From NCBI GenBank assembly GCA_949317995.1, contig OX439044.1, positions 50,672,166 to 50,736,165 on the forward strand: a stretch of 64,000 bases of DNA. Reading direction: 5' to 3'. Position numbers and translations under genes: made by a program. Below are positions 22,590 to 51,600 of this stretch, piece by piece (the first letter of the stretch is position 1; each line of letters starts with the position of its first letter). Below the pieces are notes generated by a model. It saw nothing but the letters and a program-made list of their open reading frames with translations. It ran no database searches and had not been told where the DNA came from. This DNA comes from Acholoe squamosa. Taxonomy: Eukaryota > Annelida > Polychaeta > Phyllodocida > Polynoidae.

Positions 22590-22942
22590 TAACTGTCATG
22601 TTTTGAAGTTCTGGCCATGCTCACACAATTCATATGTTCACCTAGTTCACTCTGTCATTACATTGAAAAACAGGCTTTTGATTCGAAGGTAACTTCATAC
22701 TTTCCCTCAAGTATGAAAATCACAGTTGATGTTTGAAAAGGTATCGCTCTCATTTTTGCCAAATTCCCCGCCGTTTACTAAGTATTGGAAAAGTCAATTT
22801 TCTATCTTACAACTTCTTTAATAAAACTGTTAGAGGAGGGGTGTAAGGTTTTGTTTTGGTGGTGTGGTATACAAATAATGTTACCTTTCATTTGATATAG
22901 CACTTGCATATAAGTCGTACATGTAATTGCCGTCGAGGGAGG

Positions 22943-23841
22943 TGTTAAGGTCCCTTATTAAGCTAGATAGGTGAATTAGTATATCATACAAGGATAAAAG
23001 GTAACTATAATTGTGTATGGGTAGAGACTAAAGAACACTAAGGTTGGAGAGTGCTCTGAGGTCAAATGGTAATTAAGGAGAGAGCTTGGGTCACATGAAC
23101 AGGCATGAACTATGGGTCAGTGATGGACTGGTGACTCAAAGCCTATGTTGAACTATGTGCTTGGGATGAACTTATGACTCGAGGCCTGTATGAACCCATG
23201 TACTGGTGATGAACTCAGTGTGACTCACGGAGGCCTGTGAACTGTAAACCAGGGACTGGGCCATGACATGACATGGGGTGGTGAACTCACACAAGCTGAA
23301 CCTAATTCAACCCTGAACTCAAATCTATGACATAGATGGGGTCATGACCTCTTGGACTATATTAGATCGGTCAGACTGCCAATCTAGAGGGGGAAATTAA
23401 GTGAACATATTGCTGGTGAAGACGAAGAGCAATTGGACTTGGGATTGCTAACTGTTGCTGAAATCAGGGTGAATTACTGTGTGTGAGACTACCCATGGAT
23501 AGTGCTGCCACTCAGTAGGACAGTAAGGACCTATAGATATCCATGGCCCATGAAACTGGATATTGGAGCATTCTCTGACTTGGACATTTTACCACTATTC
23601 TGATCATTGTGATGTTGTGCATACCAGTTGTGAATATCAGCAATAAAGTGCAAAAGCTTATTATCTCTCACGAGTGCTCTGTGGCTAATACAGATGAGCG
23701 CGTATTGGTCAATTACATACAAGTATTAGCTTATCATTCTGGGGACATTACTGCTAACTACATCAGTTGTGCTGGAGACAAGGTAAGCAGATAAGACCTT
23801 AATATATGTGCATTCATCCCAGAACCCAGACACGCTCAACA
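22943..23841 (+). repeat. 5' LTR
   Basis: 899 bp, TG...CA termini, with degenerate internal repetition of GAACT/CATGAAC phrases around 23080-23290. The short open frames inside it recur exactly in the other LTR and are not genes. Confidence 0.9.
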
Positions 23842-24148
23842 TATGGTGGAGAACCCGGGTAATTTTGGAAAATCTTTACAATTACTATAGAATTACTACC
23901 AGAAACAAGGTAATGAAGGAACCCAAACATGACTAAAAAAGCTGAAAGTCAAAAAGTCATGTAAGGGAAGTTGTAAAAAAGCAAATTCTAAAAGGTATGA
24001 AACACATATAAGTAGATGAAACAGAAGTATCAAAGTAATCGAAAGCAAGCATCATTATAATGCATATATACACATACAGGTTAATCAATGTAATAAGGTA
24101 AAGTAGAAGAATGAAGATGGTACTCATTCTCTAAAACATCGGGGGCTG

Positions 24149-25047
24149 TGTTAAGGTCCCTTATTAAGCTAGATAGGTGAATTAGTATATCATACAAGGA
24201 TAAAAGGTAACTATAATTGTGTATGGGTAGAGACTAAAGAACACTAAGGTTGGAGAGTGCTCTGAGGTCAAATGGTAATTAAGGAGAGAGCTTGGGTCAC
24301 ATGAACAGGCATGAACTATGGGTCAGTGATGGACTGGTGACTCAAAGCCTATGTTGAACTATGTGCTTGGGATGAACTTATGACTCGAGGCCTGTATGAA
24401 CCCATGTACTGGTGATGAACTCAGTGTGACTCACGGAGGCCTGTGAACTGTAAACCAGGGACTGGGCCATGACATGACATGGGGTGGTGAACTCACACAA
24501 GCTGAACCTAATTCAACCCTGAACTCAAATCTATGACATAGATGGGGTCATGACCTCTTGGACTATATTAGATCGGTCAGACTGCCAATCTGGAGGGGGA
24601 AATTAAGTGAACATATTGCTGGTGAAGACGAAGAGCAATTGGACTTGGGATTGCTAACTGTTGCTGAAATCAGGGTGAATTACTGTGTGTGAGACTACCC
24701 ATGGATAGTGCTGCCACTCAGTAGGACAGTAAGGACCTATAGATATCCATGGCCCATGAAACTGGATATTGGAGCATTCTCTGACTTGGACATTTTACCA
24801 CTATTCTGATCATTGTGATGTTGTGCATACCAGTTGTGAATATCAGCAATAAAGTGCAAAAGCTTATTATCTCTCACGAGTGCTCTGTGGCTAATACAGA
24901 TGAGCGCGTATTGGTCAATTACATACAAGTATTAGCTTATCATTCTGGGGACATTACTGCTAACTACATCAGTTGTGCTGGAGACAAGGTAAGCAGATAA
25001 GACCTTAATATATGTGCATTCATCCCAGAACCCAGACACGCTCAACA
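24149..25047 (+). repeat. 3' LTR
   Basis: 899 bp, offset exactly 1206 bases from the 5' LTR. It is preceded by a weak purine tract (CGGGGGCTG). Confidence 0.9.
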
Positions 25048-25560: not shown

Positions 25561-26088
25561 TTAAATTTGGTACTGGATGGAAGTGTTGTATGGTACTACT
25601 GGCAATGGATCCACCAACACTAGTATTACGGTCGTTGGTCTGATAAAAGTGACACTATCACAAATGATGCCCCATAACAGTACCCCCAAAATGGTACTGG
25701 ATGATGGCCGATCATAGCACCACCTTCAATCGCACCTCCAATCGATACTTTCATTTGTAACCTGATGATAATTTCACTTTTGGAATGACCATAGCAACCG
25801 CCTCCCATCTAAATGCACCTATGCACATCTTACATAGCATAGGCCTCTAGGCCATTGGCGTTAGGTGGTAGAGCATTGTTCTATGCAGCTAAATGGTGGA
25901 TGTTCAGTACCCTGTCAGAACCACAGCGCTCAAAGATTATCAGAGAGTAGTATATTTGCCACCTACTTCTTCCTGCAGCGCATGATATCCTCTATGTGTG
26001 TTTTTCAATTCAAGCCGCATACCCACAACACAATGTATTGGTGCCAACAGTAATCTACCGCCTGCTCATTTTCAGATCTGTTGTCACT

Positions 26089-27606
26089 ATGCTGTTTGAA
26101 ATTTTCCTCACCCTGGTTATTGGCTGTTTATTCCTGCTTGCCAAACTACTCCGCAAACCTCCAAGGTTATGGAAAGAGGATGACATGGGTGTATACGGAC
26201 CTGGTTCTAGGAAATTAGGATCACTAGAGTCAATGATGGGTCATGTTGGGGAGGACGGACTGTTTATACTCTCCAATGTCATCATCATCCGCTCCAAATG
26301 TCAACTTACCCAAGCCATCATTCAGAAATCCCTGATGGCATTGTCTCAGAGACATCCACTGCTACGAATGAGACTTGGCAAGGAAAATGGACGATTTACC
26401 TACATGAAGGAGATTGAAGACTTTGAGGTGGACTTGGAGGAATGCAACACCCAGGACTGGCAGAAGATAATGGAAGATCAAATCCCAAAACTATTCAATG
26501 CAGAAAAGGGACCTTTATGGAGAGTGAAATTCCTCCCTGAGACCTCATATAATGATGGAGAACAGGATGGTTATCCCTACCAGGCTGCTTGTGTCTTTGC
26601 CTTTCACCATGTCATCACTGATGGACCATCTTACAGCCGCCTCTTTGGTGAATTCCTGACCAGACTACATGAAATTCTTGAGGGCAATGCACCAAGTGTT
26701 GAACCAAAATCCCTCCTGCCGCCATTAGATGCATACATTGACTCTGCTGATCATATTTATAAACCGATGTTCAATTTTCTTTTAAATAGCTTTGGTTTGA
26801 TCACATCAGTTCCAGCATTTCTTAAGTTTATGGCAAAGAGCTTTGGAAAATCTCCATTATTTGTAACTAATCTTGGTGTGGAGACTGACAGAAATCCAAA
26901 AGCTTTGAAGAAAACATGCATCATTCCAATGGAGCTGACCAAGGAGCAGACCTCTCAACTTCTGGCAGCATGTAAGAAACACAAAAGTACTGTGCATTGT
27001 GCAATTCAGACTGCCGCCTGTGTAGCCTACTGCACTTTGGCTAATGGAGGAAGGCTGACTCAGAACCACAAGATAAAATCAGGCCCAACATGCAATCTTA
27101 GGCCTTACCTTGGTGCAGTGGAACTCAGTGACTATCATGGGCCCTACTATGGAGTTACCATACTGGACACAGAAGTTGGGCCTGAAATGCCATTCTGGGA
27201 CATGGTTACTCAGGTTAATACAGATCTTGCAAATAAAATGAAATCATATGGACCAATTCTATTATTCGGTATCATGTCACATCTTGCTGAATCAACCACA
27301 TTCTGGAAAACTCTAAACCATACAAATCAAAATCTCCCAGGTGGAAGGAACCGTGACCTTGTCTTCACCAACCTTGGCCACTTGAAATTCTTGAACAGAG
27401 ATGAAACCAGCAAGGTCAAGCTGTCAGCACGCTTTGGGTGTTCAGCTGAGCAGAATGAAGGGGCAACATTTGCCAACAACTTAGCCACTTTCGATGGCAA
27501 GCTTTTCTGGACATTTGTTTACTACTCTCATGTCACCAGCAAGGAACAAGCACAGAAGTATGCAGACTTGACCATTGAAACTTTGATGAGGGAAATAAAA
27601 GAATAG
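26089..27606 (+). CDS. acyltransferase-like protein, HHxxxDG (condensation / alcohol acetyltransferase) superfamily, copy 1
   Basis: A single exon of 505 aa. The start is the ATG aligned with the paralog at 39971; an earlier in-frame ATG (25996) has no counterpart there and probably lies before an intron, because an acceptor-like CTCATTTTCAG ends about 13 bases before the chosen ATG. Residues 2-21 form a hydrophobic, probably membrane-anchoring helix. HHVITDG at 173-179 is the catalytic HHxxxDG motif of CoA-dependent acyltransferases and condensation domains. CNLRPYLG and a C-terminal LFWTFVYYSHVTSKEQA strand-helix fit the second half-domain of that fold. It probably transfers an acyl group from a thioester to an alcohol or amine; the substrate is unknown. 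An AATAAA signal lies at 27866-27871. Paralogs are at 34022 (decayed) and 39971. Confidence 0.88.
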   Translation: MLFEIFLTLVIGCLFLLAKLLRKPPRLWKEDDMGVYGPGSRKLGSLESMMGHVGEDGLFILSNVIIIRSKCQLTQAIIQKSLMALSQRHPLLRMRLGKENGRFTYMKEIEDFEVDLEECNTQDWQKIMEDQIPKLFNAEKGPLWRVKFLPETSYNDGEQDGYPYQAACVFAFHHVITDGPSYSRLFGEFLTRLHEILEGNAPSVEPKSLLPPLDAYIDSADHIYKPMFNFLLNSFGLITSVPAFLKFMAKSFGKSPLFVTNLGVETDRNPKALKKTCIIPMELTKEQTSQLLAACKKHKSTVHCAIQTAACVAYCTLANGGRLTQNHKIKSGPTCNLRPYLGAVELSDYHGPYYGVTILDTEVGPEMPFWDMVTQVNTDLANKMKSYGPILLFGIMSHLAESTTFWKTLNHTNQNLPGGRNRDLVFTNLGHLKFLNRDETSKVKLSARFGCSAEQNEGATFANNLATFDGKLFWTFVYYSHVTSKEQAQKYADLTIETLMREIKE

Positions 27607-30567
27607 ATAGTTTGTAGCGAATGATACTAGGCTTGGAAGGTTAGTTTCATGATACATTCTGATAATTACTGTTCATTGTTAAAGGCCAGAGTGTTAGACT
27701 TACTGTCAGGCTTTCAAATTACTTTCTTAAACAAGCAACATTTGATAGCTTGGTTGTGGTCATTTGCGGTTACATTGTAACAAAATGGGTACAATCAGGC
27801 TCAATCAAACACTGTTCTCATTGAGATCTCCATTGAGGCTAGCCCTCTCATATTTTAGAGGACTGAATAAACTTCCACATATATCAGCCAGCAACTTCTC
27901 ATCTTTAGCCACTTTTGCAATTAGCATTGTTACATAGTCTTTCATGCTTGTATCTCACAATACGTAGTGAGACTTAAATATCATGTCCTGTCTGGGGATC
28001 ACAATGTTTAATCATATCTTCCTGAGATAGGTGTACTTTGATTTGATTTCAGGGATTGTTTTTATAACAATAATGATCTATTGTTTTATTTTGACAAGAA
28101 TGGGACTAATAGTTATGCAAATGATAAAGGGATTGCATTCCCAAAGCGCATCCCCAGCAATACAAAATTCACGCTAAGATCAGCTGGAGGGGTGAAGGTG
28201 GTGTACCACTTTCTCTCACCCAGTCGCTAATTACAGGAACTTGTATTGGTAGAGATCCCACCACTCAGCTTAATAAATGGTTATAGTATAAATAATGCCA
28301 ATGTGATCTCTCCAAGTGTAGAAACTCAACACTCTGCTAGCAAATATTCTTGATGGACCTGTGAAGATGGTGATTCTATTAAATTCTTCTTCCTAATAAA
28401 CATGACATGTTTGTCAGACATGCACACTATACCTTAACAAGTTCACATTGATGACTGGGACCGTGCACTGTTTTTTTTCTACTTCCCGTTTGCCTACTTG
28501 AAGAGGCTACATTGAATCGAATGTGTATCCCCAATCAAATCAAGACTGAAGTGAATTTGAGTGAAGTTTTAAGTTTAAACGAGTTTACTGGCCAGCAAAA
28601 ATCGTAAGATTTAGGTGCTTTAATAAATATAAGCCACGATGAAATATTCACTATCATTATATTCACATATCATTCGCAATAATCCCGGTTAACATTAAAG
28701 GTATATAACACTATTCTGTTAATCCTAAACTACCAGCAGTTTTTCAAAATCTATTGGGATTATATTAGTTTTATGTATTATGAGATGGATAAAGCAATAA
28801 AAACCATGGTTAATTGTGCTAGTTTCAGATTTATTGACATCTAAAGATGTGGAATCATTAATTATTGCTTCTTATGGGAGAAACCCCCATTTTCCGATAT
28901 TTTCTTTAATATTGAAAAATTGACCAGTGATATCTTAATCAAACTTTTTATAGTTTGAGAAGACATCATCTGTAACATGACCAAGCAATAAAAACAGGTA
29001 GTCATTCAACAAACAAAAGAGTCATGAATAATTCAAAGAAAAATAATATATGAGTAAATGAAAAGTATTGTAATTCCTTACATTTCTCACTATAGGAAAG
29101 AAGCTGTCCGGAATTTGTTAACCAGACTTTGTAGGGATTAAGATCCAATCATTATGAACATTTTATGAGCAAGGAATTGAAAGGTTACTGGCAGAGTCTA
29201 GAAGCTACAGATTTATGAATTAAACTTATTTTTCCTCAACTACAGAAATCTATGAAGTTGGCCAGTAGTGAATTTTAGTGATATGGTAGGAAAAATGCAA
29301 AAGTCTATCATTCAACAGCTTGACAATGATGAGTTATGGCATAAAGAAAAGGGAAAAAAGGATATATCATAAGTTTAGGCAATTTTTGGCCACCAGGTGG
29401 CAATGGAACAGATGGTGGAATATACCTTTCAGTGTGTCAGACAAGCGGTTTCCGTGAACCAATCTTTTGCTTTATCTCATGTATCAATGTATTCCATAGC
29501 TATATCTCATATACTTCACATATAATATTTTAAGACTGGACTCAAAAGTGTACTTGGACTCCTTGCATTGAACGTTTGGTGGTAGTAGGCCGAAATACCT
29601 GCCTGCTCACAGGCAGGATCCAAGATGTATACAAGCCTATAGTGGCACAAACACATGGCTAGTCTGAACTAAGTACTCACTGTCAGTTCCTGGAAATTGT
29701 CCCTCCTATTCACAAACATGTAGTTTCCATGTACATCAGCTTATATCGACTGAAACATGAGATATATCCAATAAATCTGACATGTTTATCTTGAGCTTAG
29801 ATATCACTACCTCAATGGCCTCCATTGTCAACATGCTGGGGATGCCACCTGGTGTTAGCCTCCTTTTGAAACATAGGGCTAACCAACCAAGAATAGTGTA
29901 GTCTTTTTGGCACTAGGTGGCTACACCTGGCTTCAAGATGGCCGACAATGATTTGGAGTTAGGGAGGGAGATTTGAAAATCACCTGGATTATTAATTATT
30001 ACAAGTATTTCAAGTGTTTTGTGTATTGTGAATCTTTGGATATACATTGAGGGAAGTGTTGGTGGAAGCATTGGACCTGACAGTAAGTACTTCTGTGAGA
30101 ACTGGGCACTCAGCCAATCTGGCTGACCAAACAGACTACAACAGACACACTTGGTCTCTGAGGTTCCCTCAGAGCGTCTACGGAGTAGGTGGTGGGGTAT
30201 CTCATATAATACTGCCTCTGTATAGGGGGACTACGTCTATATACCTCAAGTTGCGGTCTGCCTACTTTTAGTTTACACTTATTATTACCTCACAGTACCC
30301 TTCTTGGTGCTACACTGGTTCTATATCAGCTGTTCTTGGGCTGTTCCACCGTGTTACTCTAATCAGGGTGTACTTATTTTGTTTTTCTTTTTCTTTTAAA
30401 TCTCTTTATTGCCAATAGGGTATGTTATCGGTACAAATTCAATGTTAACATCTTAGATAATGGTCTCGTACATTCCATTCATACAGTAGTTGCTGGTAAT
30501 CATTTTCAAGGTACATATGCTTAGTACATCATTTCACATAATTCGTACTTTGCTTTAGGAGATATAC

Positions 30568-30571
<4 letters not shown>
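27607..30571. other. 3' UTR of copy 1 and intergenic sequence
   Basis: Beyond the AATAAA at 27866 I see no supported gene. CCACCTGGTG/CACCAGGTGG phrases occur in opposite orientation near 29393 and 29847, too weak to call an element. Confidence 0.4.

Positions 30572-30648
<77 letters not shown>
30572..30648. repeat. (TA)n microsatellite
   Basis: A long, nearly pure TA run with one AAATA interruption. It could be the 3' tail of the minus-strand LINE that follows; this is not proven. Confidence 0.9.
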
Positions 30649-30650
<2 letters not shown>

Positions 30651-31149
30651 ATATCCAAACACACACAAGGAGGAAGCCTCATCAGGTCTTCCACCCTTAA
30701 GTCTTAGGATATATAGTTTCGGTTTTATAACCACTCATTTAGTACATTCAATTAGGAATAACTCCATATATACATAGTAGCAAATCATCATCTTGAGGCA
30801 GAAGCAGTCAGTCTGATATTCCGCTCTAAATTTATGGGATATCCAGCATCGATCAAAGGTATTAAGGAATACAGAGAAAACAGTGAAAATTTGTACTAGG
30901 TACTTATTAACTGTATATTTTTCATGTGGCAAAAGAAGGCTATGGACCTCATCCCCACTAGATTAGTGTTATGGGTTGATCCTTCTGGTCCTAGCTTATT
31001 TAAACATTTAATAAAGTAAGAAACTAGACACTAGAAAATAAAGAATATATTTGAATTTGACAGGGTATGAGGAGAGGATCTGATAATGTATGTAAAAATG
31101 TAAGGTACATTAATTTAGTACAGGTTGAGTGTAGGGTAGAAGGGATTTA

Positions 31150-31878
31150 AGATATTTTCTTGTGTCATTTTAAAATATTTCTAGGGTTTCAGCGTTTCTT
31201 CTACCACATGTTAAAGCATTCCATGTTATGGCACCATGAAACTCCACACTTCTGATATAAGAGAGACAGTTTGGAGTAATTGTTTTACATAAAGGGGCAT
31301 CATGTTGTCTGGTTTGTAATCTATTTACAATCATATAATCCAAGGATCTCGAGCGACTATACATATAGTTTATAGTGTGAGCAAATCTTCTATCTATTAA
31401 TTTATTACAACCAGTAATATTGTGTATGAAGTTTGTATTTGTAATATGAGGTACTTTCAGGCATATTTTTAAGCATCTATTTTGAGCATATTGTAGTGGA
31501 TCCAGATATTTTCCATAAGTTGTTGAAAAGCAGATGTCCGCATAATCCATATAAGGAAGTATAGTAGTTTTATAAATCTTCACTAACTTAACATCTAGAT
31601 ATCTCCTTAATAAACACAGTTTATATGTTTTAAACGCAATAGTCTTAATCTGGTTTTTTAAGTGGTATTTGTAAGAGAGATAAGGGTTAAGGGTCACACC
31701 GAGATATTTATAACTAGGGACGATTTGCAATATTTGATTATTCAACGTAATACTAAGGTTTTTAATTTTTGATTTGATGATGTAAATAACATAATTTTTG
31801 TTTTAGTGATGTTAATAGACAGTTTGTTCTGAATACACCAGGTATAGTAATATTTTAGGTCACCTTGTAATTCCATCT
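31150..31878 (-). mobile_element. non-LTR retrotransposon (LINE), C-terminal RT part, older element
   Basis: On the minus strand, a frame at 31745-31170 encodes YKYLGVTLNPYL, IYKTTILPYMDYAD and YAQNRCLKI, the typical thumb/connection region of jockey- or CR1-like LINE polymerases. Upstream, 31874-31770 continues as ELQGDL...WCIQNKLSINITKTK, but in a shifted frame. The polymerase core resumes at 33212-33531, beyond an inserted second LINE. It is broken by a frameshift and is not functional. Confidence 0.85.
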
Positions 31879-33206
31879 CCCTCCTCCTAGGAAGACTTAT
31901 GAATTTGCATTTATCTCTACAGTGTGTATCCTGGTTTAATTCTTATCTTAAGGACAGAAAGCAATATGCTACTGCCAATGGGCGTGTATCTGCTGAAGAG
32001 GCTGTAACGTGTGGCGTCCCGCAAGGGTCCGTGTTAGGTCCGTTATTATTTATAATATATATTGATAGTATAGTATCGGTTATAAAATCCTGCAAATTCT
32101 GTTTGTACGCCGATGATCTCGCTATCTATGTCAACGATACCGACCCCAATCATGTACTAAGGAAATTACAGTCTGATCTGGATAGTATCAGTAAATGGTG
32201 TAAATTGTTCAAGCTTACTATCAATAATGAAAAAACAAAGTTGTTATGGTGTGCAAGTGATTTACTTAATACCAGACACAATTTGAGTATAATGAGTGCT
32301 GAACTGGATGGTAAGCGCCTTGAAGTGGTTGATGAATTCAATTACCTTGGTGTTATCATTGATCGTGGTCTTAATTTTCGGAGAAACAACGAAAAAATAA
32401 TTTCTAGTTTCCGCCACAAGATGTACCAATTAAGACAGTTAAGGAAATTTGTCGATAATAAGCTGTGTCTGACCTTATACAAACAAATGGTTCTACCTGT
32501 GCTGGAACATGCAAGTTTTCTACATGAAAGTGGTCCAAAATCCAGTGTTGGCCGCTTACAACTTATGCAGAATCATTGCCTATGGTTATGTCTTCGAATC
32601 TTTAATACTCGGGATATATCTATATACGATCTCCATGTTAGAACTTACATGAAAATGCTAAAGGTTAGACGTGATAAGAACTTATTATCTATGATGTATG
32701 ATGTTTCTTGTGATCCAAACTGTGTCAAACTCCCTGCCAGGAACTTGCGCGGCAATGTTAAAAAACAGTTAAAGGTATCCAGATCTAGGTGTTTGACGTA
32801 TGATAAGTCACCACTGTACAGGGGATGTGTCCTTTGGGACAAATTGGATGCAAATACTCAGCAGATAGGCAGTAAGAAAGAATTCATGAACAAAATCTGA
32901 ATGTATTTGGTGTATAACCGTCACTTGATAGACTACGTAATTATTTTTGAAAGATGTAATATACATGCTGCCTGCAGATAATCGACTTGTGCAAATCATG
33001 GTGATACATACAGCCCCTAAGAGGCTTTAGTTATGTCTTTAGTAATATCGTAATGATCTACACCCAAAATGATGCCTGCCTGATGTAACTTTGTACAACC
33101 TGATTGAGCGCTACACTATTTCTTTCCTGTTGCCGTGTTTTGGCCGATCTGAAAAACGTACATGTATGATTTCTGCCAATAAACTTGTTAAAACTCAAAC
33201 TCAACT
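31879..33206 (+). mobile_element. 5'-truncated LINE inserted inside the older LINE
   Basis: A 333-codon frame (31899-32900) carries GVPQGSVLGPLLF, the catalytic YADD box (CLYADDLAIYV) and YLGVIIDRGLNF of non-LTR reverse transcriptases. The endonuclease and N-terminal RT are missing, as usual for 5' truncation. The 3' end is a short AACTC-type tail. CATCT flanks both sides (31874-31878, 33207-33211). Removing the element and one CATCT rejoins the minus-strand RT in frame (GCT AAG ATG GAA), which confirms insertion into the older LINE. Confidence 0.92.
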
Positions 33207-33211
33207 CATCT

Positions 33212-33531
33212 TAGCTTGCTTAAAACTGTTGTGTGATGAGTATATTACTGTATCATCAGCGTATAGTCTAATATTACAAGTTTTGGTACACTTAATTACA
33301 TCATTTACATATATTAAAAAAGTAAAGGACCCAAGATAGATCCTTGGGGTACACCACAAGTTACTTTTTCCAGATCAGAGCTTAATCCATTCGCATATAC
33401 TAATTGTTGCCTGTTGGAAAGATAGTTTTTAAACCAATGGTAGTTGTCAGAGTGGATTCCATAGTGGTGCAATTTAATTAGAAGGACAGAGTGGTCTACT
33501 GTATCAAAAGCCTTCCTGAGATTATTACATG
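33212..33531 (-). mobile_element. older LINE, RT palm region
   Basis: Minus-strand frame with [24 protein letters not shown] and [13 protein letters not shown], continuing (shifted) to LYADDTVIYSS at about 33235-33265. It is the upstream half of the element at 31150-31878. It is cut at its own 5' side by the foldback element at 33532-33792. YKAITQAI-like codons at about 33794-33850 suggest the LINE continues beyond it. Confidence 0.85.
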
Positions 33532-33792
33532 GAGGCCGTTTCACCGCATTTAATACAATAAACATAGACGTCCATATTTTAAATATGGTCGTCCGTGTAT
33601 CAGATTTATGTCAATATTTGAAAACCTACTGCCCCCTCCCCCCTCCGCATTTACAATATGAAGTATATTTCAAATGCGGAGGGGGGAGGGGGCAGTAGGT
33701 GTTCAAATATGGACAGAAATTTGAAACACGGATGTCCGAATTTCAAATACGGACTTCCGTATTTATTGTAATAAATGCGGTGAAACGGCCTC
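33532..33792. mobile_element. foldback MITE inserted in the LINE
   Basis: Arms GAGGCCGTTTCACCGCATTT and AAATGCGGTGAAACGGCCTC are perfect inverted repeats. The inner arms (CTACTGCCCCCTCCCCCCTC and its complement) make almost the whole 261 bp one hairpin. ATG flanks both sides (33529-33531, 33793-33795). Confidence 0.85.
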
Positions 33793-34021
33793 ATGGGTAT
33801 AGCTTGAGTAATGGCCTTATAGAGCAAACTGCACATTGAATAAAGGAGAACCATGTTCTACCATTGAAAGATATGTACAAGAAAAATTCAAATAAAGATA
33901 GATTGATACTTTCAAGATAAAATGTCAAGTCATCGAACATTACTTGCCTATTTAAGTAGTTTGGCCATCACCTGTCAAGTCAACAGTAAACCACTTCTTC
34001 CTCAATGTCAGATTTGTCACA

Positions 34022-35485
34022 ATGCTGTTTGAGATTTTCATCACCCTGCTTATTGGTTGGCTGTTCCTGCTTGCCAAACTCCTCCAGAGACCTCAACAGC
34101 TATGAAAAGAGGACGGCATGGGTGAATATGGTCCAGGTTCAAGGAAATTGGGATTTTTAGAGTCAGTAACAGGTCGTCTTGGAGAGGAAGGAGGCCTTAT
34201 TCTATCCAATGTCATCATCATCCACTCCAAATGTCAACTTACCTAAGACATTATTCGGAAGGCCCTGATGGCATTGTCTCAGAGACACCCATTGCTAAGA
34301 ATGAGACTTGGCAAAGAAAATGGACGATTTACCTATATGAAGGAGATTGAAGACTTTGAGGCGGACTTGGAAGAATGTGACACCAATGCAGAGAAGGGAC
34401 CTTTATGGAGAGTGAAATTCCTCCCTGAGACCTCATATAATGGTGGGCATGATGCTCTTTAGCCCTACCAATCTGCTTGTGTCTTTGCCTTTCACCATAT
34501 TATCACTGATGGACCATCCTACAGCCGCCTCTTTGGTGAATTCCTGAACAGACTGCATGAGATTCTTAAAGGTAATGAGCCAATTATTGAACTAAAATCC
34601 CTCCTGCCACCATTAGATGCATACATTGACTCTGCTGATATCTACAAACATAAGTTCAATTTCCTTGGTTTGGTGTCATCAGTTCCAGCCATAGTTAAAT
34701 TCATGGTAAAGAGCTCTGGGAAACCTGCATTATTTGTAACTAATCTTGGTGTGTAGACTGATAGAAATCCAAAAGCTTTGAAGAAGACCTGCATCATCCC
34801 AGTTGAACTGACCAAGGAACAGACCTCTCAACTCCTGGCAGCATGTAAGAAACACAAAACTACTGTGCAATTCAGACTCCTGCATTTGTAGCCTACTGCA
34901 CTATGGCGGTCGGTGGAAGGGGGACTCAGAACCACAAAATAAAATCAGGCCCATCATGCAATCTCTATCCTTACCTTGGTGCAGATGAACTCAGTGATTA
35001 CTATGGGCCTTACTTTGGATTTATCATGCTTGACACTAAAGTTGGACCTGAAATGTCATTCTGGCACAAGGTTACTCAGGTGAATATGGATCTTACAAAT
35101 AGAATAAACTCCCATGGACCAGTTCTATTATGCTGTATGACATCATATCTTGCTGAATCCACCACATTTTGGGGAACTGTAAAGCACACCAATGAAAGTC
35201 TTCCAGGTGGAAGAAATCGCGACCTCGTCTTCACCAACCTTGGCCACTTGAAATTCTTGAACAGAGATAAAGCAAAGATTAAGCAAAGTCAAGCTGTCAG
35301 CACGTTTTGGATGTTCAGCAGAACAGAATGAAGGGGAAAAATTTGCCCACAACTTGGCTACCTTCAATGGCAAGCTTTTCTGGACATTTGTCTACTACTC
35401 TCATGTCACCAGCAAGGAACAAGCACAGAAGTATGCAGACCTGACCATTAACACCTTGCTCAGAGAAAGAATAGAAAATTCTTAG
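34022..35485 (+). pseudogene. decayed HHxxxDG acyltransferase paralog, copy 2
   Basis: It aligns end to end with copies 1 and 3, from the MLFEIF start to the final ADLTINTLLRE. It is broken by in-frame stops at 34103 (TGA replacing Trp), 34244 (TAA), 34460 (TAG) and 34754 (TAG), a 45-base deletion of the QDWQKIMEDQIPKLF segment near 34384, a short deletion near 34868 that shifts frame, and an insertion near 35275. The catalytic motif survives as HHIITDG. The acceptor-like CTCAATGTCAG about ten bases before the ATG is conserved with both other copies. It is a duplicated, not processed, pseudogene, because the flanks are shared with copy 3. Confidence 0.92.
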
Positions 35486-36245
35486 TATAAAATACAGTAG
35501 ACTTGCAGGGTTTATTTAGAAAAACAATTATAAATATTGCTTGTTTTTTAAGTCTTCACATATGCATTGTTGGGAGCTATGAAACCTGATGTTTCTGCAC
35601 TTCTGTCCACCAGGATATATTATGGCATCATTTCCTATTCACAGAAGGATATATGTTAAATGAATTCACCCACTGTGCTACACCCGTGGATAATATCCAT
35701 GGTCCAGGTTGAAATACAGAGACAAAACAAACCCTGCCGAACAGGAGACTTTTGACAAATCATTTATGACTAATTCATCCTAGAAGATGACTATGTGGGC
35801 TCATTAAATCACACTGTGATCTGTACTTACTGGTACAAGACCTTTTTGGCCCAAAAACTAAGTCCTACTACCCTATGTTTTGCACAAAGTTCCCACATAT
35901 CATGGAAAGTCATGGAATAAAAGGTTGTCAGGGAAAGTTTTGGAATGTCATGTAATTCCAGGATATTGAGGAAGTCATGGTAAAATGTATATTTTCTACC
36001 AAAATTCTTTGGACATTTACCAACCTCCATCCCTAAACTAAAGAATTTTCCATAGCAGATTTGCTAACTCAGGTCCAAAAAAAAGAATACGACAGCATTT
36101 GGCAATGCAAGTGACTCGAAAGGGCACTTAATCTCTTCTTTTAGGCCCCTTCTGATACTAACCTCATGTTTTCTACGAGCATTATCACTGTCAATGGTTA
36201 AGCCTATGGAGAATGCATCCATTATCACTCGTATGTTTCATTGGC
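35486..36245. other. 3' flank of the pseudogene
   Basis: No gene. A phrase, TCATGGAA(T)A...GTCATG, recurs around 35900-35960 and 37100-37125. Confidence 0.4.
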
Positions 36246-36570
36246 GAATAACTCCTCTCTTGGCAAGTTAAGCATTGCAAAAGAGCAGCAGGTCTTGAAT
36301 AATGATTCATATTAACCAAACAAACGCATGAGACAGTGTAATTCTCCTCCATTTTGTTATAATCCAGCAGTTTCGATGGCACTGTGAGTCGATCGTCTCG
36401 CTGTCTGCCATTTTGGATTTTGATTTTCTGTGCACATGCACGACCCCTCCTTGCCGGTGTAGCATTTTCGATGGAGAAATGATATATTCTATCGATTTAA
36501 CTTGAAATTAATGGCTTTTTAAATATAATCCATGCATCTTTGGCAATATCAATCAAATTGAATTGAATAT
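36246..36570. repeat. segmental duplicate, copy A (matches 41881-42610)
   Basis: TTGGCAAGTTAAGCATTGC, GCAGGTCTTGAATAA, CATATTAACCA, AGCAGTTTCGATGGCAC and GCCATTTTGGATTTTG occur in the same order as at 41891-42510. Part of it (AGTCGATCATCTTGC...GCCATTTTGGATTTTGG) repeats again at 36600-36640. It lies downstream of the pseudogene, as copy B lies downstream of the intact gene. Confidence 0.8.
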
Positions 36571-36640
36571 ATCCTATCTTTTTACTGTTATAGCCCCACA
36601 AGTCGATCATCTTGCTGTCCGCCATTTTGGATTTTGGTTC

Positions 36641-39282
36641 TATCTGCGCATGCCCGACCCAATTTCCATGGGGATTTGGGTCAATTTGCACCACCACGGC
36701 TTTGTGATGCGAGTCAACGACAGGGCGAACACGTAATTTTTTATCTTTTTAATAAAACATATCGATTCAAATCATATCCTTTTGCCATTCTTTATCATAT
36801 TTCTATATTATAATTGACAAAAAATCGATATCCGCCATGTTTGTGCAGAAATTACGACATTGGAGACGCGAGGATGGATCAGATGATGGCAAATTCATCA
36901 ACATTCATCAATTATTTGCACCACTCCAGACCAGAAACGTGGAAAAGTTTTAACATAGGGCTAAAAACGTCTTACTTTTTTCTCACTGTTAACCTACTGT
37001 TTAGTAGGCACTGAATGGGTGTCATTTTTACCCGACTCTTATAACTCGTCTTTCGAGTTAAAAATTATGTCAGGGAGAATTTTGATTCTTCTCATAGAAA
37101 TTCATGGAAATATCATGGAATATCAGTCTGAGAATTCTATGGGAACCCTGTTTGCAGTACAGCTATGGCATGCAACCAATACTGCTATATAGCCTTCTTC
37201 TATGGCAGTTGGTACTTAAATACATGGTGGATTCAACAATACGCTACAAAATGACTTCAAAATAACTGGTAATAGGTTTACACAAAATCTAATTGCTACT
37301 CTAGTATGTGCCATATTTAAATTTTGTAGAGACCTGATGGAATGAATGCCTATAGTTTTACATTTCAATACCACTAAGTCTGGTGCTTATGTAATATGGA
37401 TGTTTGCTTGAGATATACATTTGGTGCTTTGCCTTTATCTTTTACAGGCCAATGAGGTACATAAAAAGCCATCATTTTGCACATTATTAGCCATGGCTTT
37501 GTGTAATTAAGGATCTTCACAATATCCGGAATGTAGCCAAATTGTAGGCCTTATGTGTTTTGTCAAGAATTTATAGATGAATAAACATTTCATGTCTGCT
37601 CCTATTGTTCGGCTGATTTTTTCATCTCTACCCAATTCAGATTCAGATCACAATAATTTTTTTTTCCGTTTTATTTTTAGAGTCAGTTTATTTATACTGG
37701 AGGCTCAAGGTAGGCATATCTGTCCTACGGTCCTATTTTCACTTGGCTCCAGATCGGGCCTTTGTTTGACAATATTTCAAAGTTTAAGTGAGAGAAGCAT
37801 GATGCTTATTCAACTTTTCAGTTTGAATATTTGGTGTCTACAAATCATTAGATTTACAATTTTGTAGAGCAAGCATGTCAATGTAGATGAAGACTTATTA
37901 TACCCTTAGAACTGACACAATCATGGGGCTAGCAGACAGGCAACTGCATCGAAGCTGTAGGGTCCCCACATGTCATAATGCTGAGCACTTTGATGCCATC
38001 GGGAGATAAGGGTTTGGCTACCAAAAATGCGATTAAAGTCTGTAATGGGTCCAAATGAAGGAAGCACTATGATGTTCACGAGAGATGCAGTTTTTTTTTG
38101 TCAAAACTATCAATGGAAATACAATACTATAAAAACCTCCCTCAGAAGACCAGAATTTTGCATTTAAAGCCAAATGCAGCTTCTGGCAATTGTTCAAAGT
38201 TCGGATAGAAGTTAGCATGAGTGGGAATTTTGATCAAGTGAATCGAGCACGATGATATGATATAATTATGTGAAAAGGTTATGTCAGGGAGAATTCCCTT
38301 CATTTCTCCCTGGGAGGGTTTGCTACTGAGATTGTCTGACCAGGGTCAACAGGCATGTCTTGCTTTAAGGGCATTACTGTAGATTGATGGTAGTGAACAA
38401 ACATTGTGGCGTGTCCGTCAGGCACAGGAAACATGACCACATATATTACTGGTTAGAACTGTGAGTAATTTCTTTTATACAAGTCTGTGTGTCTTATAAA
38501 TTGCTTGCTTGTCCTGGTTCACTTTTCAGGCCAGTTTGACCTGTTTTCTTAGGTTTAAACGTGAGAGGCCTAAGGTTTCATCCAAGTGATTTAGTATCCC
38601 ACCCTCTCCTACCAAAAGGAAAAAGAGTTCCAACTCTTTCATGCTTATCCTGGTTCACCTTTCAGGTCAGTTGGGCCTGTTTTCTTAGGTTTAAAAGTGA
38701 GATGCATAAGGCTTTCCCTTTCAGAGTACATGCAATTGATTTCAGCACCCTACCCCTCCCCTCGCAAAATTAGAGATTCTCTTTAGTTATCAGCAATGTA
38801 GATTGCTTTGACCTAGTTTAATGATGCTTGCACTGATTACTACGCCAGGAAGTCTAAAGGTGCGTTTAAAACATGTCTATCCAGCATGAACCTTCAACAA
38901 CATGTAGAAATTACCATATTTACTTCCATAGTAGAAACCTGTATACTTTACCCATGTTTCTAATAACACCTGACAACGGCTCACACCCCTTAGCATTTGA
39001 AACCCCTGCTATCCCACTATGCAATAGTGGGTTGCTTTAAGACTACTCGTAATAATTTGTCCAAATGTACAGTCATAAAGGTTTAAGAAACACATTGTTT
39101 GAAGGTATATTTAGTCCAGTACTATGACGCTAATAACCTTAACAGCTTTATATTCTTTTGGGCCATAGGTCCTTTAATTTAAGGATAACAACTAATGTTT
39201 ATTTTTTGAGTACAGCTTGAGTGATGGCCATGAATATTTAGGGACATGGCAATATAGAAAGAGGAAGCAGGTTTAAAAAATT
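36641..39282. other. intergenic, no supported gene
   Basis: Only short frames. The one clear structure is the tandem duplication at 38511-38711. Confidence 0.4.
38511..38782. repeat. diverged tandem duplication, period ~136 bp
   Basis: Units starting at about 38511 and 38647 share TCCTGGTTCAC, TTTCAGG, CTGTTTTCTTAGGTTTAAA, then a common CACCCT(C/A)(T/C)CC stretch. Confidence 0.7.
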
Positions 39283-39352
39283 GTGGATCAACATGGTAAA
39301 AGGTATACCCGCGAGGGGGTGCGCGGGCATACCTTTTACCGTGTTGATCCAC
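39283..39352. repeat. near-perfect 70-bp hairpin
   Basis: GTGGATCAACATGGTAAAAG pairs with CTTTTACCGTGTTGATCCAC; the inner part GGTATACCCGCG pairs with CGCGGGCATACC around a GAGGGGGTG loop. No poly-T terminator or coding context. Confidence 0.85.
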
Positions 39353-39456
39353 AAATGTTCATCAAGGAATATGTATATTGCCAAGATGTCTATGTACATG
39401 TATATTCTGATGAGTCATATTTTCTTCATATCCTCCTTATCGTGTATGTACACTCA

Positions 39457-39759
39457 CACTGCAAAAAAGGTGTTTAAAGATACACACCAAATTTTCCCAA
39501 CACCAATATTTAAACATCTAAACACTTGAAGTGTTTAGGTGTTTAGCTTTTAAACACTTATTCTCAAACACCTAAACACTGAAGTGTTTAAGTGTTTAGC
39601 ATTTAAACACTTGGTTAAACACTTCCTAGTTAAACGCGTTTAAAATTAAACGCGTTTAACACTTAAGAAGTGTTGAGAAAAGTGGGACAAATAAGTGTTT
39701 AACCAAGTGTTTAACTTCTAAACACTGGTGTTTAATCCCTAAACACTGTTTTTACAGTG
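39457..39759. mobile_element. MITE with CACTGCAAAAA ends and AAACACTT palindrome array
   Basis: The left end CACTGCAAAAAAGGTGTTTA and right end TAAACACTGTTTTTACAGTG are inverted repeats. Between them, AAGTGTTTA and TAAACACTT alternate about a dozen times, so the 303 bp could fold in many registers. CACTG-type ends recall hAT-like MITEs, but no target duplication is seen. Confidence 0.7.
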
Positions 39760-39970
39760 CAGTTGTATACAGCAAATTGCATATTAAGTGAAGTGATGCT
39801 ATAAACTGTAATTGAATGAAACGTACTAGATGACTTAAATCAAAATTAATTGATATTATGAAGTTGGAATATCAGTCAACTCATCAAAATCTGTTTGCCA
39901 ATTCAAGTCTCCTGTAACCAGTTTCAGGCTAACAATAACTCACTACTTTCTCAATTTCAGATTTGCCACG

Positions 39971-41485
39971 ATGCTGTTGGAGATTTTCCTCACCCTGCTT
40001 ATTGGCTGCCTGCTCCTACTTGCCAAACTTCTTCAGAAACCTCCGAGATTATGGAAAGAGGATGGCATGGATATACATGGTCCAGGCTCAAGGAGATTAG
40101 GAATGCTAGAATCAGTGATGGGTCAAATTGGAGAGAAAGGAGGCCTTATTCTATCTAATGTCATCTTCATCCGCTCCAAATGTCAACTTACCCATGCCAT
40201 CATTAGGAAAGCCCTGATGGCTTTATCTCAGAGACATCCACTGCTACGAATGAGACTTGGCAAGGAAAATGGACATTTCACCTACATGAAGGAGATTGAA
40301 AACTTTGAGGTGGACTTAGAAGAATGTGGCACCACGGATTGGCAGAAGATAATGGAAGATCAAATCCCAAAACTATTCAATGCAGAAAAGGGACCTTTAT
40401 GGAGAGTGAAATTCCTCCCTGAGACCTCATATAATGATGGACAGCAAGATGGTTATCCCTACCAGGCTGCTTGTGTCTTTGCCTTTCACCATGTTATCAC
40501 TGATGGACCATCCTACAGCCGACTCTTTGGCGAGTTCCTGACCAGACTGCATGAGATTCTTGATGGCATTGAGTCAAGTGTTGAACCAAAATCCCTCCTC
40601 CCTCCGTTAGATGCATACATCGACTCTGCTGATATCTACAAACCTAAGTTGAATTTCTTGATAAACTTCTTTGGTTTGGTGACCTCAGTTCCAGTATTAG
40701 TTAAGTTCATGGCAAATGTGTTTGGAAATTCTTCATTATTTGTAACTAATCTTGGTGTGGAGACTGACAGAAATCCAAAAGCTTTGCAGAAGACCTGCAT
40801 CATCCCAGTTGAACTGACCAAGGAACAGACCTCTCAACTCCTGGTGGCATGTAAGAAACACAAAAGTACTGTGCATTGTGCAATTCAGACTGCTGCATGT
40901 GTAGCCTACTGCACTATGGCGGACGGTGGAAAGCTGACTCAGAAACACAAGATTAACTCAGGCCCAACATGCAATCTTAGGCCCTACCTTGGTGCAGATG
41001 AACTTAATGACTATCATGGGTCATACTTTTCAGCTGTCATGATTGACACTGAAGTTGGTCCAGAATTGCCATTCTGGGATGCTGTTTCTGCGGTGAATGC
41101 CAACCTTAAAAGTCAGATGAAATCGCATGGCCCATTCCTATTCATGGGCTTGATGTCAAGTCTCACAAAATCAGATACCTTCTGGGAGACAACAAAGAAA
41201 GCCACTGAAAGTCTGCCAGGTGGAAGAAACCGTGACCTTGTCTTCACCAACCTTGGCCACTTGAAATTCTTGAACAGAGATGAAACCAGCAAAGTCAAGC
41301 TGTCAGCCCGTTTTGGGTGTTCAGCTGAGCAGAATGAAGGGGCAACGTTTGCCAATAATTTGGCTACCTTCAATGGCAAGCTTTTCTGGACATTTGTGTA
41401 CTACTCTCATGTCACCAGCAAGCAACAGGCCCAGGAATATGCAGACCTGACCATTGAAACTTTGCTCAGAGAAATAAAAGAATAG
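39971..41485 (+). CDS. acyltransferase-like protein, HHxxxDG (condensation / alcohol acetyltransferase) superfamily, copy 3
   Basis: A single exon of 504 aa. The start ATG follows an acceptor-like CTCAATTTCAG by ten bases, pointing to an intron in the 5' leader. Residues 2-21 (LLEIFLTLLIGCLLLLAKLL) are a probable membrane anchor. HHVITDG at 173-179 supplies the catalytic His and structural Asp of the superfamily; CNLRPYLG and the C-terminal LFWTFVYYSHVTSK are as in copy 1. Identity to copy 1 is very high in the N-terminal half and from GGRNRDLVF onwards, but clearly lower at about residues 225-265 and 375-420, which may line the acceptor pocket. The protein probably works at a membrane on an unknown acceptor. 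It lies 4.5 kb after the pseudogene, with which it shares 3' flanking sequence. Confidence 0.9.
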   Translation: MLLEIFLTLLIGCLLLLAKLLQKPPRLWKEDGMDIHGPGSRRLGMLESVMGQIGEKGGLILSNVIFIRSKCQLTHAIIRKALMALSQRHPLLRMRLGKENGHFTYMKEIENFEVDLEECGTTDWQKIMEDQIPKLFNAEKGPLWRVKFLPETSYNDGQQDGYPYQAACVFAFHHVITDGPSYSRLFGEFLTRLHEILDGIESSVEPKSLLPPLDAYIDSADIYKPKLNFLINFFGLVTSVPVLVKFMANVFGNSSLFVTNLGVETDRNPKALQKTCIIPVELTKEQTSQLLVACKKHKSTVHCAIQTAACVAYCTMADGGKLTQKHKINSGPTCNLRPYLGADELNDYHGSYFSAVMIDTEVGPELPFWDAVSAVNANLKSQMKSHGPFLFMGLMSSLTKSDTFWETTKKATESLPGGRNRDLVFTNLGHLKFLNRDETSKVKLSARFGCSAEQNEGATFANNLATFNGKLFWTFVYYSHVTSKQQAQEYADLTIETLLREIKE

Positions 41486-41880: not shown

Positions 41881-42610
41881 TACTCCTCTCCTGGCAAGTT
41901 AAGCATTGCTCAATATCAGCAGGTCTTGAATAAGGATCCATATTAACCATAAAAAGGCATGAGACTGTAGGCTGCAGGACACTAATTATTTTCTCACTGT
42001 TGGCTTATATAGCATATGGGCGAAAATAAAATATTTGTGCGAATTTCTGGGCTTAGCCACTGTTATTTTCATGTAGGCACACATTTTTCCCATTAATTTA
42101 GGGCCATGAGATGTGGTACAATGTAATTAACATTTCTGCTATCGGCCGTAGAGTGCGGACATACCCAAATTTGGGGGTTTTGCAGTGAATGATTACAATA
42201 AATTCTGTAATTGAAAAGAGTGCAACCCCCTCAACTTACCCTCAAATATCAGCCTAAATAACACTCAAATCGATTAATATACATCCTAAGGATTAATTTG
42301 ATGCCTGGTTTGCCTACCCACTGTCAGATTTTAGACCAATAATCATTGTACAACACCCTTTAGTGCGGAGCTACAAAGTGTCTCCTGCTGCCACCTCCCG
42401 CCAATTGGTGTTCTGCAACCTGTAATTCTCCATTTTGTCATAATCAAGCAGTTTCGATGGCACCGTAAGTCGATCATCTCGCTGTTTGCCATTTTGGATT
42501 TTGAAGTTCTGTGTAGCATTTTTGACGAAGAAATGATAGATTCTATCGATTTAACTTGAAATTAATGGCTTTTTGAATATAATCCATGCATCTTTGGTAA
42601 TATCAATCGA
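41881..42610. repeat. segmental duplicate, copy B (matches 36246-36570)
   Basis: The same ordered blocks as copy A, with an extra ~410-bp segment (41975-42420) between the CATGAGAC and CTCCATTTTGTCATAAT blocks. The 3' part (TCTATCGATTTAACTTGAAA, AATGGCTTTTT) also matches 36490-36560. Confidence 0.8.
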
Positions 42611-43736
42611 ATTGAATCAAATACACCTCCTTAATTTACTATTAAACAAAAAATAAAATCTGACTGCGCGCATGCGTCAAGTCTCCGGGCCGGAAGTGTG
42701 GCGGTCAACATAACAAAAATATGGTGGTCCGATTTACACAATAATCTATAAACTGTCTTAACATCTTACCTGCTGAAAAAAGCATCTTAATTGCCCTACT
42801 CCCATAGGAGTCAATGTGTTATATCGACCCCCTGTTGACTGCCAAAATGGACTGCGCAATGCTATCCTATCGGAGCCTCGTTTTCGTGAAAAAGTAGGTT
42901 AAATATCAGGTTTTTCATAGGTAAAAAAATTTCTTTTTCAGGAATTGAGCATGTGCAATGAAAGACTAGATCCTAAAGAACATGTTTCCATGATTTTTTT
43001 GTTTAATTATCCCCCAATTTCGATGAGCAATACCCAACTAAAATTCCAATCCCAATCTTCAGTTTTTGGCTGAAAACGCGCCACCAATAGCCCAGGTAGA
43101 CCTGGGCCAAAAGGCTTTATGGTCTGAGTGACTGTCATCATTCATTCATGAGAGGATTGCTTTTATGTTTGGTTCTTAATCTTCAATCATAGTTACATGT
43201 ATCTAAAGACATTTATCCTCAGCATTTTGTCTCATGATGTACCAATATAAGTATTGACCTTCATGAGGGGTCTTCACCTGCACCAATGACAGCTGGAGGA
43301 GCAATGTTCTTTGCCATTTTCTCTCAAGGCCTAAAAAAATTGGTTGTAGAATAAAGCTCAATAGATAAATGTATTTTACAGCACCTACTGCACTGATTAT
43401 GCAAATTCCAAATGGGTTGTATTGGTATGTGGATATCTTCAATTCCATGCAGTAAACTCAAACATTAGTATTCCATTATTTAATTTGGACGACCAGACCT
43501 GTACAGTATGATGTATATCAAAATATGACTATTACATGCTTGTATTCATAAATAACCGATACTTGATATTTCTCACTCATCCTCAATTTCAAGGTTGAAT
43601 ACAATAATGAACAATTATGAAGTACATTCACATGATGTATATACTTATACTCTGAGGTAATAAATACTCACTCACATGATATTATGTTCATCGTTATTTC
43701 TAGGGTCTTCAGTCTCTATGCAATGCATAATAATGA
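42611..43736. other. intergenic, no supported gene
   Basis: No feature can be supported beyond scattered low-complexity sequence. Confidence 0.4.
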
Positions 43737-48630: not shown

Positions 48631-51600
48631 CTACAACTCATCCTTAGCCTGATCTACACTGGCTTCTTGTACTAGTTTGTCTGTGATATCCTCCCCCAGC
48701 TCCTCCTCCTCCTCTTGTGCCATGTTATCTGTAGGGGTCTCAGCCCCAGCTGAGTTTCTCGCCGCCTCTGCTGCCAGCTCAGCATCCAGCTCCTCCTGAG
48801 CTTGGCTCTCCTTCAGTCGCTCATCTGCCTTTTCCTGCAGCAACAGAGGGCATTGCAGCAGTATGAATTGAATGGTATCATCATAATACCCTACACATCA
48901 GGTACACCCTGCATATAAGGCACACCCCCACCTTGAGGGCTTCCTATGGGGTGCACCTGGTACTCATTTTTTTAGTACTCATTTAAGGGAGTTGTCATTA
49001 TTTATCAACAGGGGAGGGGGGTGGGTTATCTCACGGATGGGCAAAATTTTTTTACGCCCTCGGCGACAGTCAAAATTTTTTGCGCCCCCCACCAGAGGCG
49101 CGGAGAATTTTGGTGCCCCTCTTTGTTCTATAGTAGCGTACGAGCTTTTTTGCCAAAAAGAGGGTAATTTTTTTTGGCCCCCCCCTCAAGAGGGGTCCAA
49201 AATTTTTTAGCCCCCCCTCGGGAGGGGTCTGAATTTTTTACGCCCCCCCCCCTCAAACCTACCATCCCCCCCCTGTTGATAAATAATGACCACTCCCTAA
49301 TGTGTTTATAATATAATATCCTTAACTATAAGGTACACCCCTATCTTTGGCTGCTTTGGCACCAGGGATCTATCCTCACGTATTAAGCCATGCCTTCTGC
49401 ACAAGTATAACGGTTATCTCCTTAATATTGATGTGTATTAGACTCTCTGTGGGTAAGTGTTTCTTTTTTAAAAGATCTGGATATAGCTATTCAATCTTTT
49501 TTTTCTTCATTATTTCATTGTTGTGAGCGACTTGTCCCAGTCTTTGTTTCAGTCATAGAAAAATATTTGTGTGGTAAATGTTTGTGTCCTTGACATAGGC
49601 TGTAAATGGTACATTATTCTATGAATGACTTGAATCAAAGACAATATAATAAGATTACGCAGTCCTTACCTGTATGCCTGCTGTGACTGCACTAGCCATG
49701 GCCCACATCCGGGTGGTCACATCATCCTCTGTACACAAACCTGCACAAAAAAATAAGCAGAGGGCATGTCTTGTATCAGTTGATACAACATTCTTCTAAT
49801 CACCAAAATATGGCAGTGTTTTGACAATGTCATTGAGCCAATATGCTAACAAGCATTGTCGATCTATCCTGTTATCTGATACGCCATCCTGGTAGACATA
49901 ATTATTTATCATTCACATACTTTTTTCTCTAGGGATTTTGTGAATAGAAACTAGCAAATTCATATATTACTTAAGGCCTAACAGTATGGGTGATTCTTCT
50001 GAAACCTCCCACTTTCTGGTTTTTGGGGTCTTTTGGTTTTGTGTGGCTGTGGAATAAAAAATATTTAACCATTCTTCTTATTATTGTTTTTATTTGAAAG
50101 AAAACACTTGGGCCTTCAGAAAAAGGGCCAATTTTCATACATCGGACCAATATATAGAGATATGATGATCCAAAGTTAAAAAATGGCCTTTTTTTCAATT
50201 TTCACTCCATTCCAGGCCTTATATTATCAATCCAATGAGTTAGAGACCATCATAATTTCATCTAATCCTTAGGAGGGGGGTCCTATCTTACATTTCCATG
50301 TGGTTCTGAGGTGATATGTCTCATAGATCTTTTACCCTTATGGTAAGCTCATATTAAACTCAAGAACTGTTTGATGAACAGTGCACACTGGGATATCATT
50401 GATCAGAGCCAGTGGCGTCAGACAATGCTCCAGCTGAGCACCTAGAAATACCAGATTGCTCGTTGCTGGAGTGACTTTAATCATTTGAGGACTACACAAT
50501 GCTCGAAATCTTATCTTTGCTCATGTTGTAATTACAGATCCCAGGTAAGCAACAGATACATCAGTTCCACCCTTTTATAGTGTATCAACCCTGTAGGATT
50601 AGGTAAATACACTGATGAAGCCCTGTCAGGTCCTGCAAGGGCTTCAATCATTTATTTTATGTCAATAACTTCTTCCCATAGGTTTAACGTTTTTAGAGGG
50701 TTTATCAGAGCAACCAAAGGGAGCAGCTCATTTTCAACACACAACTCTTATGATGTGGAACATTATAAAAGGGCCAACTGCTACTTGCTAGACTAACATC
50801 TTTAGGTTTGTTTGGGGCTGGGGCACCTGATCTGTTGTTATATTGTTCAACATGAACATCTCAAGCATGGTTAACAACTACAACATGTTAAGCAATTCTA
50901 CACATTATGGACATAATGTGACCTGTTTGATAGAAGACACACTTTTCCTGGTATTTACACTATGGGACTTTCTTGACAAACTCCTGGTCTTGGTTACCAA
51001 TGGTGGCACCATCATCATCATATACATGCACAGGTATGAAATGCTAGAGATCCCAAGTAATATTTTCATTGGTTGCCTTACCATGGCAGATCTAGCATCA
51101 GTGATATCTTTACCCTTCAGGACTGCCTCGGCGTATTTGTCTCATACATGGACCTGGAATCTCAGCCGTTTTCTTACAATATATACAGCCTATACCACAT
51201 CAATGATCAACACAGTCACTCTGTGTGCAATTGCTGTAGACCGCCTGATCTATGTTGTGTACCCACTAAAGTACAATAATAGAATGCCAGTGAATAGAGC
51301 CTCTTTCATATGCATAACCATCTGGGTCTTCTGTAGTCTGTACAGTCTGCTTGGAATAGGCCTCGGATACACAGATACCTATGACATGGGTGTCATTGTG
51401 CGTCCTTGCAGGAGTGAAATGTCTGTACAAGGTATCCCACTAGTTCTGATCTGGGTTCCCTTCCTAATCTTTGTCCCCGTTACCATTGGATGCTACGTCA
51501 AAGTAGGATTGGTGGCCCTAAAGCAAAGGAATGCGATCGCTGCAGCTGGAGGTAACCAAGCACAACCAGCAGCAATTGACTTTAAGATTACAAAAGTCAT

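Follow-up and report, generated by a model that had tools for sequence, protein, structure and literature searches.

A small nuclear family of stand-alone condensation-fold proteins, probably acyltransferases, in an annelid genome

The window analysed here, a stretch of 64,000 nucleotides, occupies 50.67-50.74 Mb of contig C10, which is 81.4 Mb long in a genome totalling 1.48 Gb, and contains two intact genes, A and B, together with a decayed copy (Table 1). A preliminary description of this DNA had recognised two intact genes of about 505 amino acids and one pseudogene, and both counts hold: the two genes are open over 505 and 504 amino acids, and the pseudogene carries four in-frame stops within the part that matches residues 1-303, along with in-frame deletions and two frame changes. 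The motifs that it had named are likewise present, HHVITDG in A and B and HHIITDG in the pseudogene, with NLRP in the two genes and CNLYPYLG in the pseudogene. In the products of A and B, residues 3-21 form a strongly hydrophobic segment (Kyte-Doolittle means of 2.32 and 2.40), which would be fit to serve as the N-terminal anchor that had been proposed. The two proteins are 82% identical and their DNA 85%; the DNA likeness runs from 24 (A) and 21 (B) bases 5' of the start codon to about the stop codon, and the NG86 method gives a dN of 0.102 and a dS of 0.419, a ratio of 0.242.

Table 1. Genes, pseudogene and candidate acceptor sites in the window
Feature	Position	Strand	Description
Gene A	26089-27606	+	single-exon coding region, intact, 505 aa; HHVITDG at 173-179; NLRP at 336
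Gene B	39971-41485	+	single-exon coding region, intact, 504 aa; HHVITDG at 173-179; NLRP at 335
Pseudogene	34022-35476	+	decayed copy; HHIITDG and CNLYPYLG
Acceptor-like site before gene A	26058-26075	+	ends 13 bases 5' of ATG; putative 3' end of leader intron
Acceptor-like site before gene B	39943-39960	+	ends 10 bases 5' of ATG; putative 3' end of leader intron
Acceptor-like site before pseudogene	33994-34011	+	ends 10 bases 5' of ATG

The pseudogene shares flanking DNA with gene B (33863-35476 against 39811-41482, 79% identity, about 160 bases upstream included), and downstream patches within 36251-36569 match patches within 41882-42623 at 80-87%. Because of this common flank the pseudogene looks like a DNA duplicate and not a retrocopy, and retroposition was rejected as its origin. 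A piece of a reverse transcriptase lies between gene A and the pseudogene (31170-32900; RVT_1, E 1.3e-20 for 31899-32897), and a frame on the opposite strand to the RVT_1 piece (31170-31745) may be another retroelement piece.

A protein search of the genome with B reported 19 matching stretches. Two further intact members, C and D, form a tandem pair on contig C7 and are 54% and 49% identical to B, so that there are four intact members in all and two clusters that hold them, one being that of the window. Decayed copies number four (the window pseudogene and those on C14, C12 and C10), and there is in addition one fragment on C7; the contigs that bear copies are C7, C10, C12 and C14, each of 69-84 Mb. 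The family is thus stand-alone and multi-copy, as had been stated. The further claim that it is expanding agrees with the four intact members but, in view of the decayed copies and the fragment, holds only in part, the picture being one of gain and loss. A diverged paralogue (L030:4348-5868, near 50.218 Mb of C14) is a single-exon frame of 507 amino acids with a hydrophobic N-terminus and was found in the search with the single protein B at E 2.6e-6; hhalign aligns most of this protein with the family profile (probability 96.8, 20% identity), a Pfam scan listed no family for it up to E 1, and it carries HPAILDQ in place of HHxxxDG, so that it is possibly a non-catalytic member. On C7, two related proteins (L024:5200-5811 and L026:4443-5057, both on the minus strand), which share 48% identity and have a hydrophobic stretch and, by eye, PPxY-like motifs, alternate with genes C and D as though a two-gene unit had been duplicated; they gave no tblastn match within the window, and Pfam listed nothing for them up to E 1.

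The genes had been called intronless, which stands for the coding region, a single exon, but probably fails for the whole gene. Acceptor-like sites, defined as [CT]AG behind an AG-free tract with pyrimidines counted per 15 bases, lie 3-14 bases before the start codon in seven of the eight copies examined and are absent from the decayed C14 copy, and they point to an intron in the 5' leader. The pyrimidine counts are 12 for A, B and the window pseudogene, 13 for D, 10 for the decayed C10 copy, 9 for the decayed C12 copy and 8 for C. As background, 143 of the 2900 ATGs in the window (4.9%, both strands) reach 11 of 15 pyrimidines and 21% reach 8, so that the sites of C and of the two decayed copies are weak when taken alone; moreover, the seven acceptor-bearing copies are relatives and hence not independent observations. 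The diverged paralogue has an acceptor-like site by eye but none by the scoring rule. The presence of such sites would also make retroposition of the other family copies less likely.

Elsewhere in the window, a direct repeat of 909 bases (22933-23841 and 24139-25047, 99.6% identity, about 0.3 kb apart) either arose by duplication very recently or is an effect of the assembly. A single-exon frame at 50843-51841 encodes a rhodopsin-type GPCR (7tm_1, E 3e-26), and the frame at 6299-7870, whose match to the SPT2 N-terminal domain falls just short of the cut-off (23.6 against 26 bits), probably represents a single exon of an SPT2-like gene. A frame of 1024 amino acids at 58686-61757, with internal repeats of 21-78 bases near its start, has no Pfam match over the cut-off, and a 50-base tandem repeat in 17.4 copies fills 63105-63963. 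The window yielded no tRNA, and neither did the initial 3 kb of mitochondrial contig C63 when scanned with bacterial settings.

That the host is an animal, as first supposed, is borne out both by the copies on large nuclear contigs of a 1.48-Gb genome and by the mitochondrial genome assembled alongside. Among the 20 of 63 contigs sampled, lengths fall from 127.1 Mb (C1) to 53.9 Mb (C18), with C19 and later ones below 0.2 Mb, which suggests about 18 chromosomes. Contig C63 (L052; 15,641 bases) is the mitochondrial genome, and in its COX1 the codons AAA, ATA, AGA and TGA fall at positions expected to hold Lys, Met, Ser and Trp, respectively; this is the invertebrate code, which argues against echinoderms, cnidarians and vertebrates. 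The long frames, named by eye, share one strand and follow one another as ND4L, ND4, ND1, ND3, ND2, COX1, COX2, COX3, ND6, CYTB, ATP6, ND5 (neither the rRNA genes nor ATP8 could be placed), an order that matches the annelid ground plan and so points to an annelid host. A long run of TA dinucleotides occupies about 4417-4867 of the same contig.

The condensation/PapA fold is textbook material for the natural products of bacteria and fungi. The profile search and structure prediction that the preliminary description had proposed were carried out, and both agree with the fold that it had assigned. Against Pfam Condensation (PF00668, curated cut-off 30.6 bits) A scores 48.5 and B 46.5 bits, and against AATase (PF07247, cut-off 22) they score, more weakly, 28.1 and 26.4 bits; because these values exceed the curated cut-offs, chance is excluded. 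C and D pass both families and also PF16911 (PapA_C). The wax ester synthase/DGAT family (PF03007) gave C and D scores below the cut-off (14.9 and 13.6 against 23.6 bits) and did not list A or B, BAHD (PF02458) was not listed for any of the four up to E 1, and the Pfam scan added no other domain. The structure model of B has the condensation fold. When the genome was searched with the Condensation profile, six candidates were scored and the four matches reported were A, B, C and D, the same profile matching 4 of 14 control genomes, all prokaryotes; with the AATase profile, C and D were reported out of three candidates and none of the 14 controls matched. These genome-wide counts, made exon by exon, are lower bounds.

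All four proteins carry HHxxxDG, and H173, H174, D178, G179 and R337 are invariant in all 14 aligned sequences, ten of them cyanobacterial. In PMC10619693, the CoA-dependent members of the fold are described as sharing HXXXD and the non-ribosomal peptide synthetase (NRPS) domains as retaining HHXXXDX14Y; the same paper states that the His deprotonates the acceptor and that its replacement by Ala in MAC2 lowers activity more than 1,000-fold. In A-D the HHxxxDx14Y signature is lacking, as Leu stands at D+15 in all four. This Leu at the Tyr position, together with the finding that no other Condensation domain was reported in the genome, makes a CoA-dependent reaction the best guess. The reading that we favour, with a probability of roughly two in three, is that A and B are members of a small annelid family of nuclear genes for stand-alone condensation/alcohol-acetyltransferase/PapA enzymes, for which ER anchoring and CoA-dependent acyl transfer are proposed.

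The best 19-residue hydropathy of the N-terminal segment is 2.0-2.4 in A-D and 2.9 in the diverged paralogue, and the segment is preceded by an acidic residue and followed by a basic, proline-containing KPPRLWK or KPRPLW. Since basic residues and prolines after such a segment are found in ER-anchored enzymes that face the cytosol, it would anchor the protein in the membrane of the endoplasmic reticulum; the acidic and basic flanks would leave the catalytic part in the cytosol. The second His of HHxxxDG would then deprotonate the hydroxyl or amine group of an acceptor that is small and probably hydrophobic. Inside the tunnel that runs between the lobes, this acceptor would attack the thioester of an acyl-CoA to give an ester or an amide. 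The enzymes of the family probably attach acyl groups to small molecules, and acylated metabolites, as first suggested, are plausible products.

Comparison with known systems bears both on this mechanism and on its alternatives. Fungal AATases of the Atf1 type define a Pfam family whose cut-off all four proteins exceed, and Atf1 is membrane-associated. PapA5 of Mycobacterium tuberculosis (PDB 1q9j) matches model residues 36-504, the anchor excluded, at 15% identity, and the fungal acyltransferases MAC2 (8jos) and TRI3 (3fot) are 11% identical each, MAC2 having HxxxG where A-D have HxxxD. The match to AzeD of Pseudomonas aeruginosa (PDB 8s6l) begins at model residue 37, so that the anchor again falls outside it. 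AzeD is titled a dehydratase, and for this reason the use of the fold for another reaction, such as the dehydration annotated for AzeD, is the rival with most weight, though an unlikely one: the PHIIADG of AzeD, aligned with the HHVITDG of A and B, is without the first His that A-D retain, and the families AATase and PapA_C, whose cut-offs C and D pass, are named for acyl transfer.

It is improbable, too, that these proteins act in trans on substrates bound to carrier proteins, in the manner of stray condensation domains from a non-ribosomal pathway. A-D are the only four Condensation matches reported in the genome, the Tyr of the NRPS signature is replaced, and among the ten window proteins scanned there was no adenylation domain, carrier domain or polyketide synthase, so that the polyketide synthase partner of PapA5 has no counterpart among them either. 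The four decayed copies, the fragment and the loss of the motif in the diverged paralogue could suggest that the family is a fading relic of little function, but there is little to commend this reading when four frames are full-length and keep their motifs, and when six NG86 comparisons among A-D give dN/dS ratios of 0.165-0.317 (dS exceeds 1 in four, which are rough). The four genes are under selection that keeps the proteins, and they constitute a real animal gene family, small in size, whose enzyme fold is a known one.

Stand-alone condensation-like proteins also occur in cyanobacteria (e.g. the Calothrix plasmid protein BAZ64960.1), where they resemble B over most of its length at 19-26% identity. 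The motif residues invariant in A-D are invariant there as well, whereas D+15 is Cys in nine of ten, and seven of the ten proteins in alignment A4, with script-chosen starts, begin near B residue 37 and have no counterpart of the anchor. Plasmid records gave two matches at 23-24% identity, and in a genome collection 65 pattern stretches reduced to 13 loci, all cyanobacterial, at 21-26%; this list is biased, since the search patterns were built from an alignment containing cyanobacterial rows. The fold alignment (A3) includes 11 of the 13 loci, without L010 and L014, and A4, from which L009 is missing as well, includes 10; L006 and L001 stand for one and the same record. In the plasmid and genome-collection searches the identity of prokaryotic matches did not exceed 26%, and with prokaryotic relatives only 19-26% identical a recent transfer is unlikely, which would leave either an old transfer or an ancient animal family. 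A viral or phage origin was rejected: B had no match in phage records at E 0.01, none of 34 pattern stretches in viral contigs was a relative, and a PHROGs scan of B and D gave a best E of 0.2. Recent acquisition of a bacterial gene or assembly contamination, to which the single-exon coding regions and cyanobacterial relatives might point, was rejected as very improbable given the spread of copies over four large contigs, the acceptor-like sites ahead of the start codon, decayed relatives in the genome, the low identity to bacteria, and NG86 dS values near saturation (1.8 for A/C, 2.3 for B/C).

Among the papers listed, titles and the opening lines of abstracts disclosed no such animal family, although one may have been published; the main text of PMC10531068, which deals with animal NRPSs, lacks the terms 'standalone' and 'single domain'. 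A bolder version of the acyltransferase reading, which we regard as doubtful, is that the HHxxxDG acyltransferases of annelids, ER-anchored and dependent on CoA, form a line of their own that is ancient in animals. They would finish a lipid-like secondary metabolite by acylating it, without an NRPS or polyketide line and with the motif-less paralogue as a non-catalytic partner.

The presence of acylated metabolites in animals is a question often answered by invoking symbionts. A selected animal gene family that has the complete active-site motif and probably a membrane anchor offers a concrete enzyme with which to test whether such metabolites may be made by the animal itself.
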